From Pelotomaculum thermopropionicum SI (GTDB lineage: Bacteria > Bacillota > Desulfotomaculia > Desulfotomaculales > Pelotomaculaceae): a stretch of DNA of 64,000 nt. The position numbers were made by a program, and so were the translations under genes. Location: the NCBI GenBank assembly GCA_000010565.1, contig AP009389.1, forward strand, positions 2,480,001 to 2,544,000, in the 5' to 3' direction. The notes below the pieces were generated by a model. The model was not told where the DNA came from, made no database searches, and saw only the letters and a program-made list of their open reading frames with translations. How positions within the stretch are numbered: the first letter of the stretch is position 1; every line of letters begins with the position of its first letter. Positions 11,034 to 46,739 of this stretch are shown here, piece by piece.

Positions 11034-11170
11034 TAAAAACCCCCACTCGATAGATTCAGCAATGACGGCGGCTTCCGGGTTTTTGGCGAACTGGTATAAT
11101 ACTTCGTCTTTTCCGGGTATAAGGAGTCGCAAATAGTCAAAAACTAAGCGTAAAACGCGGGGGGTTTGAC

Positions 11171-11404
11171 ATGCACGATAATGTTACCGTTTACACCACA
11201 CTTACGTGACCCCATTGCAGTCATGTGAAGGAGTTTCTTTCACAAAAGGGCATCCATTATAAGGAGTTCAATGTGGCCGACGACGAGCGGGCCAGGGATG
11301 AAATGGTGCGCAAAACGGGACGCCTGGCGGTCCCAACCATCACGGTGGGGAACCAGGTGGTTGTCGGCTTCAACCGGAACGAACTGGAAAAGCTGCTTTC
11401 ATAA
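11171..11404 (+). CDS. Selenocysteine-containing glutaredoxin (in-frame TGA), putative
   Basis: The reading frame from ATG 11171 gives MHDNVTVYTTLT, then TGA at 11207-11209, then PHCSHVKEFLSQKGI and a normal glutaredoxin body. That body has NVADDERARDEMV, the cis-proline loop LAVPTITVGNQVVVGF and the ending NRNELEKLLS. The TGA falls exactly on the first Cys of the CxxC redox motif, so the site would be U-P-H-C. The product would be 77 residues with Sec13, full length for a minimal glutaredoxin. A hairpin with the properties of a bacterial SECIS begins right after the TGA. Glutaredoxins with UxxC sites are known from anaerobic bacteria. The alternative is a simple Cys-to-stop nonsense mutation (TGC to TGA). 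The rest of the frame is undamaged, which favours Sec. Confidence 0.72.
11210..11250 (+). promoter_or_regulatory. SECIS-like element
   Basis: Directly after the in-frame TGA, a lower CCC/GGG helix (11210-11212 with 11248-11250) and an upper six-base-pair helix TGTGAA/TTCACA (11224-11229 with 11239-11244) enclose the 9-nt loop GGAGTTTCT. The loop starts 20 nt after the TGA and has G at its first two positions. This matches the usual bacterial SECIS rule of a loop about 16-37 nt downstream with an early G. The folding was done by eye. Confidence 0.6.
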
Positions 11405-11567: not shown

Positions 11568-11879
11568 TTATTTGATCGATTTTGTCAAATCCATCTTTGC
11601 ATAGATTATGCGGTGGATCTCAACTATTTTCTCCTCTTCCCGAACAACGTAAAAAACAGCATAATTTTTCACAGGCAGCATTCGATAATCTTCTCCCAAT
11701 GGCTTAATAGGGCGGTATATCTTGTGTGCATAAGGAAAATCCTTTAACAGGGAGATAGAATGCTCTAATGCATCCAGCAGATCCATTGCCGCCTTTGGCG
11801 CATTTAACTGGTCGGATATATAAAGGATAATGTCCGTTATATCCTGTCTAGCTATCGGAAGGTAAATGATTTTATACAT
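11568..11879 (-). CDS. RelE/ParE-family toxin
   Basis: A 103-residue basic protein with the ParE/RelE fold pattern: YLPIARQDITDIILYISDQL at the start, a central LLKDFPYAHKIYRPI helix-loop, and the strand series YRMLPVKNYAVFYVVREEEKIVEIHRIIYA. Such toxins act on ribosome-bound mRNA (RelE) or gyrase (ParE). The sequence does not settle which; the YRML...Y-V-FYVV pattern fits either. Its ATG overlaps the last codons of the antitoxin gene by 8 bases, the standard layout of a coupled toxin-antitoxin operon. Confidence 0.88.
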   Translation of the reverse strand: MYKIIYLPIARQDITDIILYISDQLNAPKAAMDLLDALEHSISLLKDFPYAHKIYRPIKPLGEDYRMLPVKNYAVFYVVREEEKIVEIHRIIYAKMDLTKSIK

Positions 11880-12159
11880 TCCCGCCGTCTGCCTTTTCCT
11901 GCAAAGTTTGCCTCAAACTGTCGAAAACCTCTTTATGGGAAAAACGCTGATTGGTTTGTTTTGCTTGCAATTCCGCTTCCTTCAATTTGAAATACACTTC
12001 ACTTTCAAATTGTAGCTTTTCATATGCTTCAAAACTCATAACAACCATATCTCCATACCCATTTTTTGTAAGGAAAACAGGTTCGGAAGTTTCGTGGACA
12101 ACCCTTGAAATCTCTGCAAAATTATTTCGCAAATCCGATACCGGCCTAATCTGTGGCAT
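11872..12159 (-). CDS. Phd/YefM-family antitoxin
   Basis: Ninety-five residues from ATG 12159, chosen because GGGGAGGGG stands just upstream; an ATG ten codons earlier has no site. The N-terminal half is the Phd/YefM DNA-binding domain (IRPVSDLRNNFAEISRVVHE, then EPVFLTKNGYGDMVVMSFEAYEKL). The C-terminal half is a polar, probably disordered toxin-binding tail. It neutralises the toxin and represses the operon. A perfect 20-bp palindrome lies 33 bases upstream of its start. Confidence 0.88.
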   Translation of the reverse strand: MPQIRPVSDLRNNFAEISRVVHETSEPVFLTKNGYGDMVVMSFEAYEKLQFESEVYFKLKEAELQAKQTNQRFSHKEVFDSLRQTLQEKADGGNV

Positions 12160-12192
12160 AGAATAGCCCCTCCCCATTTTATTTAGCATAAT

Positions 12193-12900: not shown

Positions 12901-12985
12901 GAATTGACCCCCGATCGTCAAATAAAACTGACCCACCCCATGATAAAATCTCCCTCGAAAGGGGGAGGCAAAAGAGGTGGTAAGC

Positions 12986-14470
12986 ATGTACAAATGGCAA
13001 CGCATTAAAGCGCTGCACACCCAGGGGGTCAGCATCAGGAAGATAGCACAGACGCTGGGTGTATCAAGAAATACCATCAGGAAGTACCTTAAAGGAGATA
13101 GTCCGCCACAGTTTAAAGCCCGAGAATACGAAAAACAACTAGATCAGTATCGGGAAGAGATCCAGCCCATGCTCGCCAAGGGTTACATTGGCACGAGAAT
13201 CCACAAAGAACTGGTTCAAAAAGGCTATCAAGGATCACTGTCCAGCGTCCACCGTTTTCTGCGAGCCCTTAAAGAAGACGATAAAGCCGTTAAATCAGCC
13301 ACCACCCGGGTGGAAACCGGTCCGGGCCGGCAGATGCAGTACGATTGGAAAGAGTGGCTGCTGCCTGTTGGCGGAAAACCGGTAAGCATATATATCCACG
13401 AAGTAGTCTTATCCTGCAGCCGGATGAAATTTTACACCTTCTCTTTAAGCATAACCACTGCCGATGTAATCCGGGCCCTGGTTGAAGCGATTGACTGCTT
13501 TGGCGGCTATGCCCATGAGTTGGTAATAGACAATAGCAAGCAAATGGTTATTCTCCACAAGAGGGACGGTATCGTTCATTACAACGACGAATTCCTGAAA
13601 TTCTGCGGGCTGTACGGCATTCAGCCGTTAGCTTGCGAAAGCTACCGTCCCAGGACCAAAGGAAAGGTGGAACGCCCCTTTTACTACGTCCAGGAACAGC
13701 TGCTGCGCGGCCTGGAGGTGGCCAGTTTAAACGAATTTGCCGCCAGACTCAGAGAATTCCAGGATGAATACAACAGGAGGCCGCACAGTAAGCTGGGCCG
13801 CCCACCAGAGCATATGTTTGCAGAAGAGAAAGCGCACCTTTTAAAGATATCCTCTGTCGAACCGGCTTTATTACAACGTAAAAAACCCCGGAGGGTAAGC
13901 AATGACGGCTATATTTCCCATGACGGCAATCTCTACCCCGTACCCATGCGCTACTGCACAAAGAGAGTATGGATAGAAATCATCTATGGCCGGAGCTTGA
14001 AAGTATATGACGAGGCAGGAACGCTGGTGGACGAGTTCGAGCTTCACCTGGAAAAACAGGCCGGCCGCCCGGTTCATCCAGAACACGAAGCCATTAACCG
14101 CCAATACCGGGAAAAGAAAACAAGGGTTCGTTCCGCCCTGGCCGGGAAGTTCATCAGCACTTTCGGCGAACCTGGCCGGAGGTATCTGAAAGGACTGCGT
14201 AACCAGGCAGGCGCCAACCTGTACTGGCATTTATCAGAAATCCTAGGCTACCAAAACATATATCCCGATCAAGATATTATGACAGCCATTGAGGAATGCT
14301 TAAAAATCGGCTCTTACCACAAAAACAGTATTAAAAGGCTCCTGGAAAGGAATGAAATTAGCCCGCTTTCCTTGGATTGTGACCCGGCAATGATTGATCT
14401 GCCGCCGGTGAAAATCAAACGTGACCTTTCCTGTTATACCCTGAACGAAAGCGAGGCGGCAATTTCATGA
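12986..14470 (+). CDS. istA: IS21-family transposase IstA
   Basis: A 494-residue DDE recombinase. ATG 12986 follows GAGGTGG with ideal spacing, and an in-frame GTG lies three codons earlier. The N-terminal helix-turn-helix is IKALHTQGVSIRKIAQTLGV. The catalytic core has Asp in QMQYDWKEW, Asp in LVIDNSKQ and Glu in KGKVERPF, then the IstA-type C-terminal beta domain (HDGNLYPVPMRY). It overlaps istB by 4 bases (ATGA), as in intact IS21 elements. Subterminal repeats with TTGACCC/CTGACCC occur at 12905-12935 upstream. The element appears functional. A decayed relative lies at about 41106-41800. Confidence 0.95.
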   Translation: MYKWQRIKALHTQGVSIRKIAQTLGVSRNTIRKYLKGDSPPQFKAREYEKQLDQYREEIQPMLAKGYIGTRIHKELVQKGYQGSLSSVHRFLRALKEDDKAVKSATTRVETGPGRQMQYDWKEWLLPVGGKPVSIYIHEVVLSCSRMKFYTFSLSITTADVIRALVEAIDCFGGYAHELVIDNSKQMVILHKRDGIVHYNDEFLKFCGLYGIQPLACESYRPRTKGKVERPFYYVQEQLLRGLEVASLNEFAARLREFQDEYNRRPHSKLGRPPEHMFAEEKAHLLKISSVEPALLQRKKPRRVSNDGYISHDGNLYPVPMRYCTKRVWIEIIYGRSLKVYDEAGTLVDEFELHLEKQAGRPVHPEHEAINRQYREKKTRVRSALAGKFISTFGEPGRRYLKGLRNQAGANLYWHLSEILGYQNIYPDQDIMTAIEECLKIGSYHKNSIKRLLERNEISPLSLDCDPAMIDLPPVKIKRDLSCYTLNESEAAIS

Positions 14471-15225
14471 GCAATAAGTTGACCAGTTACCTGGAAAGCC
14501 AAATGCAGTCGTTAAAGCTGAAAGGGATGCTCGGTTGCTACCAGGAGTTAACAGAAAAGGCGTCTCTAAATAACCTGTCTTATACAGAATACCTTTCCCT
14601 GCTTTTCGAAGAGGAATTGAAAAGGAAAAACGATAGCACGGTCAAGACCAAAATTAATAAAGCCCGCTTCCCCTTCATCAAAACCCTGGAGGAGTTTGAC
14701 TTTGGTTTTCAACCGTCATTAAAGGAAAAAGAAATTATTGCTTTAAGCTCCTTAGATTTCATTGAGAAAAAAGAAAATGTTGTTTTCTTAGGCCCGCCAG
14801 GGGTCGGCAAAACCCACCTGTCGGTAGCCCTGGGCATTAAGGCCTGCATGGCCAAGTACCGGGTGGTGTTTATTACCGCCCAGAAACTGCTGGAAGAATT
14901 GAGCTTAAGTTTAAGGGACGGAAGTCTTTTAGACAAACTGTTGGGTTATTCCCGGCTTAACCTGCTGATTATAGATGAACTTGGTTATATGCCCGTGAGC
15001 AAAGAAGAGGCCGACCTCCTCTTCCGCCTGGTCTCCATGCGCTATGAGAAGGGAAGCATTATCCTGACCAGCAACTATAACTTTAACGAATGGGGTGAGA
15101 TATTTTCAGACCAGGTGGTGGCGGCGGCCATAATTGACCGACTGGTTCACCACGCCCGGATATTTTATGTCAACGGAACAAGCTACAGGCTCAAAGGTAA
15201 ACTAAAAGCTGCCAACGACCGCTAG
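14467..15225 (+). CDS. istB: IS21-family helper ATPase IstB
   Basis: A 252-residue AAA+ protein of the IstB/DnaC type: Walker A GPPGVGKTHLSVALG, Walker B LLIIDELGYMP, sensor region SIILTSNYNFNEW and the C-terminal IIDRLVHHARIFYVNG. IstB binds IstA and target DNA and licenses transposition. Its start codon overlaps the istA stop. The gene is full length and undamaged. Confidence 0.95.
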   Translation: MSNKLTSYLESQMQSLKLKGMLGCYQELTEKASLNNLSYTEYLSLLFEEELKRKNDSTVKTKINKARFPFIKTLEEFDFGFQPSLKEKEIIALSSLDFIEKKENVVFLGPPGVGKTHLSVALGIKACMAKYRVVFITAQKLLEELSLSLRDGSLLDKLLGYSRLNLLIIDELGYMPVSKEEADLLFRLVSMRYEKGSIILTSNYNFNEWGEIFSDQVVAAAIIDRLVHHARIFYVNGTSYRLKGKLKAANDR

Positions 15226-39123: not shown

Positions 39124-39631
39124 GGAGCGTCGTGAAACTTCCGGGTAACCAGCGGGTTGAAATGTACCTGTCACGGTAATTTCTCGTACACCGTGAAGTC
39201 GTCAGGCAGGCGTCTTCGGGGTGACCTAAGACGTCAAGCTGCCTGAAAAGGCCAAAAGGCCGAGACAGGATGCAGGCCGTAGCGAAAGCGAACCAGTGGT
39301 GGCCTCGAAAACGCAGTTGCTGTTGGCGACCCTGCCTCAACAAGGGGAAGCCTGCCACTTGCCGCGAAGAAACGAGGAAATGCAGCGGCAGGGACAGCCG
39401 TGGTGATTAGGGGCGGCATGTATCCAAGGTTAGCCGGAAAGACACGAGAGGCCTCTATGGGCGGAAGTGGCGCTTCCAAAGGCAGGATATAAGGTCCAAG
39501 CGGCCGAAATTCCTGACCTGTCCATAGAGGAGTCGGAAGTGCCCATACTATCTATGACGACTGGACAGCATAACCAGTCTGAGAAAAGGGGCACTGCTTC
39601 ACCAATGTTTGCATGATAGGAGGACGGCTGA

Positions 39632-40918
39632 TTGCAACCGCTACTACAGTTCCCGGAAGGGAAAGTCCGCAACTTTCAGCGCAAACTCTACGTCAAGGCC
39701 AAACAGGAAAAGACATTTCGATTTTACAGCCTCTACGACAAACTTTACCGGGAAGATGTTCTCCAGTATGCATGGCAGCAGTGCCGGGCAAACAAAGGTG
39801 CTCCCGGAGCAGACGGGCAGAGTTTTAAAGACATCGAAGAAAAAGTCGGAGTCGAAAGATTTCTAAAAGAAATCGCCGAAGAACTTCGCAACGGGACATA
39901 TCGCCCAATGCCTGTCAGGCGGGTATACATCCTAAAGCCGGATGGCAGCCAGCGTCCACTAGGTATACCCACCATCAAAGACAGAATCGCACAAATGGCA
40001 TGCCTTACCGTAATCCAACCAATATTCGAAGCAGACTTTCTAGACTGCTCCTATGGATTTCGGCCCAAACGTAATGCCCACCAGGCCATAGGGGCTATTA
40101 CAGAAAATATCAAACAAGGGTTTACCGCCGTATACGATGCTGACCTGACAAAATGCTTTGATAGCATACAGCACAGGTTGATCATGGACTCTCTGGCGGA
40201 GCGTATAACAGACGGGAAAGTACTGCGCCTGATTAAGGGATGGCTCGAAGCACCTATAGTGGAACCCGGTGGCCCGAAGCAGGGAAGGAAGAATTACCAG
40301 GGCACGCCCCAGGGAGGGGTAATATCCCCTCTACTCGCCAATATCGTCCTGAACAGGCTGGATAGGCTCTGGCATAGGCCGGGAGGGCCGCGCGAGAGGT
40401 ATAACGCAAGGTTAGTGCGCTATGCTGACGACTTTGTGGTTTTGGCCAGGTTTATCGGCGAACCCATTAAGAACGAATTAGAGTCTATCATCACGTCAAT
40501 GGGGCTCAACCTCAACGAGAAAAAGACACGCATACTTGACCTTAACAAAGGGGACATCTTAAACTTTCTCGGATACAGCATCCGTATCAGCCGGGATAAG
40601 AATCGGCGCATAACGATAAAGCCGAGCGATAAAGCAATTGCACGGTTGCGCGATAAAATACGTGAAATCATCTCCCGGGAGAGACTATATCACGGATTAA
40701 AGGGAATAATCGCAGAAATAAATCCTGTGCTAAGAGGCTGGAAGCAGTATTTTAAGCTAACTAATGTCAGTAGGATATTCTCAGGCTTAAACTTTTATAT
40801 TACTGCTCGATTTTACCGTGTAGGAAGGAAAACCAGTCAGCGGTATAGCAAGATCTTCAAGCCAGGGGTCTACGTAACCTTACGTAAAATGGGGTTATAC
40901 TGCCTTGCCACTGATTGA
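39632..40918 (+). CDS. ltrA: Group II intron reverse transcriptase/maturase
   Basis: 428 residues. RT domains appear in order: [63 protein letters not shown] (catalytic Asp), [16 protein letters not shown] and the [12 protein letters not shown] motif (YADD). The maturase domain X ([20 protein letters not shown]) follows. No HNH endonuclease is present, as in class C introns. The start chosen lacks a strong site; TTG at 39632 opens the frame, so initiation may lie slightly downstream. Confidence 0.92.
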
Positions 40919-40950
40919 CCTGTGAATGCCTTACGTGAATGGTGTCGGAT

Positions 40951-40981
40951 AGCCGTATGAGGGAAAACCTCACGTACGGTT
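40951..40981 (+). ncRNA. Group II intron domain V
   Basis: AGCCGTATGAGG-GAAA-ACCTCACGTACGGT folds into the characteristic domain V hairpin, with the catalytic AGC triad, a GNRA-type GAAA loop and the CG bulge. Its presence 33 bases after the maturase stop marks the active end of the intron. Confidence 0.85.
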
Positions 40982-41105
40982 AGATGAGGGTCTGCTGGCA
41001 TATTGGCCATGGTCAGGCTAGTGAGGCACTCCCAGAGGAAACGGGGAGAAACTGATAGGCATTGACCTAAATCTTTTATGCCAGGGTCTACTCTACTTTT
41101 TAAAA

Positions 41106-46255: not shown

Positions 46256-46739
46256 TTATCTTCTACCTCTGCGTGTGGTAATTGTGTCCTTTGCAAAGGT
46301 CTCCTTGTGTGACTGCCTTTTCTCCGCAACCGTTACGCTGCTTCATTGATACTATTCAGCCATCCGACTCCCTGCCTCTCTTTTGCCTTCCTCGCTTGTT
46401 TATCGCTTGTTGGACATACCCGTTACCAGGGAAAGACAGGGTCTCCCGGGTTACCGCCAATTCTCAATGTTAGCGTGCCGAGCTCTTAGACCCCGGAGCG
46501 TCAGTAGGGACTCACCATACAATATTGCCTTCTGTGTGTGTAACCACATCGGCCATTCTCGACTAATATTTCGAGGCTCAATCACTTCAGCTTTTGCTTT
46601 CGGCCCGCTATTTTGCCGTCCTACGCTTAAAACTTTCAGTTGCCTGAATGTCTCCAAGAACTAGCTACAGGGCTGCTGGTTAGACATTACCCTGGTGGGG
46701 CTTACACCCACTAGAATTAGCGACCTTGCCCGGCCGCAC
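45608..46739 (-). mobile_element. Group II intron, 3'-truncated
   Basis: On the minus strand the intron starts with GTGCGGCCGGGCAAGG at 46739, the canonical GUGYG 5' end, followed by about 480 bases of 5' ribozyme and the start of a reverse transcriptase. The copy ends abruptly at about 45608 beside IS3-associated repeats, so RT domains after the TPQGG motif and the domain V/VI region are missing. Its 5' end abuts an IS256-type terminal sequence (46741-46762). Confidence 0.8.

Follow-up and report, generated by a model that had tools for sequence, protein, structure and literature searches.

The window, a stretch of 64,000 nucleotides from Pelotomaculum thermopropionicum SI (contig AP009389.1, positions 2,480,001 to 2,544,000), carries on its plus strand at 11171-11404 a frame of 77 residues that almost certainly encodes a selenocysteine-containing glutaredoxin of the YruB type with the active site UPHC. 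Its translation reads MHDNVTVYTTLTUPHCSHVKEFLSQKGIHYKEFNVADDERARDEMVRKTGRLAVPTITVGNQVVVGFNRNELEKLLS, and the frame is closed by the TAA at 11402. The only internal stop is the in-frame TGA at 11207-11209 (+), which occupies codon 13, the position of the first cysteine of CPHC, so that the original prediction of a complete glutaredoxin frame with a single TGA in place of the first Cys of CxxC is borne out at the same coordinates. Downstream of it lie the TGC codon of the second active-site cysteine (residue 16, 11216-11218, +), which is kept in all 35 aligned homologues, and the codon of the cis-proline of a VPT motif (11333-11335, +), whose VP is conserved among the homologues and which we take to belong to the substrate-binding loop of the glutaredoxin fold. 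A run of G residues at 11159-11164 (+), 6 nt 5' of the ATG, could serve as a weak Shine-Dalgarno sequence.

The family assignment rests on profile matches together with the UPHC site and the VPT motif. Pfam Glutaredoxin (PF00462) is matched at 1.3e-18 over all of its 60 positions (1-60/60), and the NCBIfam model TIGR02196 (GlrX_YruB) at 93.7 bits, above its cut-off of 88.55, while the solved structures nearest to the protein are glutaredoxins. Membership in Uxx-star (NF041212), a related family of Sec-containing glutaredoxin-like proteins, was rejected, the score of 62 bits falling just below the cut-off of 66, and for the UXX-star subfamilies 1-3 the gene scores far beneath the cut-offs. Under translation table 11 a single in-frame remnant is left, an ORF of 59 residues starting at the GTG at 11225, which makes it plausible that standard gene callers would miss or shorten the gene, as had been anticipated.

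The TGA is not peculiar to this sequence. Among 35 homologues aligned without gaps, the window gene included, codon 13 is TGA in 33, TGT in one (L019) and TGC in one (L052); the comparison of homologues that had been suggested as a check thus yields selenocysteine in 33/35 and cysteine in 2/35. Close homologues in 60 searched genomes, among them some that are 81-84% identical, nearly all have exactly one TGA, and a class-wide search of 113 genomes returned the same pattern in close homologues, the TGA-free ones being mostly distant. This conservation excludes a sequencing error or a recent nonsense mutation. Hence the view that the gene is a decayed or mis-sequenced cysteine glutaredoxin, its TGA reflecting either a nonsense mutation or a misread TGC or TGT, is so improbable as to be negligible: it can draw on the TGT and TGC codons of the two cysteine homologues, on the weak Shine-Dalgarno sequence and on the placement of the gene away from the conserved locus and near an IS21-type element, but it would have to accommodate the same TGA having been found separately across dozens of genomes and also in a paralogue within the same genome, a constrained hairpin and, where it can be estimated, a dN/dS of about 0.1 in the window copy.

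Downstream of the TGA, the minimum-energy fold contains an apical hairpin at 11224-11244 (+) with a stem of 9 bp (11224-11232 paired with 11236-11244) and the loop GUU at 11233-11235, which begins 23 nt past the UGA. Folding of the RNA, proposed earlier as a check, thus recovers the hairpin, with a small correction of its geometry: a loop opening on GG had been described, whereas in this fold the GG at 11230-11231 is paired; the loop still starts with a G. The published model of the bacterial SECIS element allows loops of 3-9 nt on stems of 4-16 bp and further specifies a G in loop positions 1-2, 16-37 nt between UGA and loop, and a minimum free energy of at most -7.5 (PMC13188914 Fig. 2). The hairpin falls within all of these limits, with a loop of 3 nt (GUU), a stem of 9 bp, G as the first loop base, a spacing of 23 nt and an apical minimum free energy of -9.2 kcal/mol.

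The hairpin is real and under synonymous constraint. Compared with dinucleotide shuffles the single sequence is unremarkable (z about -1) and this test is not significant; the informative one preserves the encoded peptide, and against synonymous recodings the apical segment reaches z = -5.2, with none of 300 recodings as stable. Across the Sec genes the recoding test gave P<=0.05 in 31/33, with a mean z of -3.5. In codons 19-24 the mean synonymous conservation is 0.76, compared with 0.44 outside codons 14-26; these six codons lie exactly on the hairpin, and no other run of six codons in the gene scores as high. Among the sequences that share the residues in question, codon 19 is always GTG and codon 21 always GAG. 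Searched against the 3.03-Mb genome, a covariance model of the element has its only confident matches at the window gene and its Sec paralogue, with 70 and 73 bits, the next match reaching 18.9. Compensatory covariation in the stem did not exceed that of shuffled alignments, because the stem is almost frozen in sequence, and RNAalifold did not choose the window hairpin from the 48-column alignment. In the folds of some relatives a bulged U resting on G-C pairs takes the place of the lowest stem pairs, reminiscent of the bulged U in the fdhF element of E. coli.

The two cysteine homologues differ in this respect. The closer one, L019 (G008:C38:37813-38034), has TGT at the Sec codon, its SECIS hairpin is unaltered and its genome still contains selB; it has probably undergone a recent switch from selenocysteine to cysteine that left the element behind. 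The more diverged one, L052, has TGC and lacks the apical hairpin, as expected. Since L019 combines the hairpin with TGT, the hairpin alone is no proof of selenocysteine.

The means of decoding UGA are present in the genome, a single contig of 3,025,375 bp. Profile searches found selB (380 bits) adjoining selA (620 bits), and selD (402 bits) at G000:1935066-1935989 (G000 designating this genome); the best tRNA-Sec match, with the anticodon tca, lies at G000:993839-993932. A published table places the selD of P. thermopropionicum at 1934961-1935986 (PMC2432076). The selD gene contains an in-frame TGA of its own, and SelD is itself probably a selenoprotein, to judge from its reading frame. The machinery for selenocysteine decoding is therefore complete: all four of the genes whose presence had been named as a check were found, with selC represented by tRNA-Sec(UCA). 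If the UGA were instead read by near-cognate suppression, for example as tryptophan, neither this full system nor the SECIS hairpin would be accounted for, and the homologues without TGA carry cysteine at that position, not tryptophan; nothing was found in favour of suppression, which was rejected on these grounds, and we assign it hardly any probability.

We therefore consider it almost certain that the product is a small dithiol glutaredoxin with selenocysteine in place of the nucleophilic Cys of CPHC, and that the UGA is decoded through SelB and the hairpin. What computation shows here is that the UGA is conserved, that the hairpin and the Sec machinery are present and that the protein belongs to the glutaredoxin family. 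A ribosome arriving at the UGA (11207-11209) would receive Sec-tRNA(Sec) from a SelB molecule docked on the hairpin (11224-11244), and translation would go on to the TAA at 11402. In the resulting protein, the selenolate of Sec13 would attack disulfides or selenenylsulfides of target proteins, and Cys16 would resolve the mixed bond. For this division of labour we infer the roles of the two residues by analogy with selenoprotein glutaredoxin-1 (cGrx1; Kim et al. 2011) of Clostridium (Alkaliphilus) oremlandii, which has been studied biochemically. cGrx1 contains Sec natively, has a U(C)PxC site and has been proposed as a reductant of MsrA (PMC7642778, which also gives its structures). Both are small glutaredoxins of anaerobic Firmicutes with a U(C)PxC site, a (here predicted) Sec nucleophile and a resolving Cys, although the model closest to the window gene is the YruB-type one, and the likeness is one of site features.

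The usual electron donor of glutaredoxins is glutathione. In the genome, the standard glutathione-synthesis family searched, glutamate-cysteine ligase (PF04262), has no match, and a thioredoxin reductase was found. In one relative, L040, the glutaredoxin gene adjoins an oppositely oriented gene for a thioredoxin; ORFs related to it occur in eight other loci. Taken with the missing PF04262 match and the thioredoxin reductase, this makes reduction of the window glutaredoxin by the thioredoxin system a reasonable guess.

Sec-glutaredoxins as a kind are already published, and the present gene adds a member. A 2006 listing of selenoproteomes of Firmicutes/Clostridia includes them for Moorella thermoacetica as well as for Alkaliphilus metalliredigenes (PMC1794560), the comparison here being by kind as listed, and a 2026 review counts Sec-glutaredoxin among the experimentally verified families (PMC13188914). 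With these precedents the gene is less surprising than first held; a report of a Sec-glutaredoxin naming Pelotomaculum was not found in the literature searched. The result sets right a gene that standard gene-calling programs would trim to 59 residues or miss, and a syntrophic thermophile gains two Sec-glutaredoxins. Moreover, with dozens of Sec genes, a Cys gene that has the hairpin and a Cys gene without it, this lineage lends itself to clean comparisons of how Sec and Cys are exchanged and of the SECIS bases required by SelB.

The second Sec-glutaredoxin of the genome, L047 (G000:1103158-1103388), is 81% identical to the window copy. It adjoins a gene for a penicillin-binding protein, which also flanks the glutaredoxin gene in 16 other loci examined, and this shared neighbour marks L047 as the orthologue by position. 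The surroundings of the window copy are different, with genes for a response regulator and a GNAT protein on its upstream side. Compared with its relatives it shows a dN of 0.13-0.21 with a dS of at least 1.2 or saturated, and where dS can be estimated dN/dS is about 0.1. The low dN beside a high or saturated dS indicates that the copy is old or acquired and under purifying selection, and that it is no pseudogene. A nucleotide tree of 231 columns resolves too weakly to place the origin of the window copy or to date a duplication, and a plasmid search returned homologues only below 60% identity.

The window copy might have the TGA and hairpin as described and nevertheless be poorly expressed or silent, with the paralogue at G000:1103158-1103388 doing the work. 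Its Shine-Dalgarno sequence, a G run where most homologues have GGAGG, appears weaker, it has Leu11 where Pro is usual, and its location is not conserved. Low dN against saturated dS, on the other hand, speaks for long-term selection on the coding sequence, and we regard a poorly expressed or silent copy as unlikely. Returning to two working genes, a more elaborate picture can be drawn in which both Sec-glutaredoxins are kept, the window copy was separately acquired and is specialised, glutathione-independent and thioredoxin-driven, and L019 is a recent Sec-to-Cys switch; that all of this holds jointly is conceivable, though we would sooner doubt it than rely on it.

Directly downstream of the glutaredoxin gene, the minus strand carries genes for a ParE-type toxin and a Phd/YefM-type antitoxin (window 11568-12189), followed on the plus strand by an IS21-type element with transposase and IstB ATPase (12977-15225). 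Further along the window, Rfam matches to group II intron RNA lie at 39150-41096 (+) and 46481-46704 (-).
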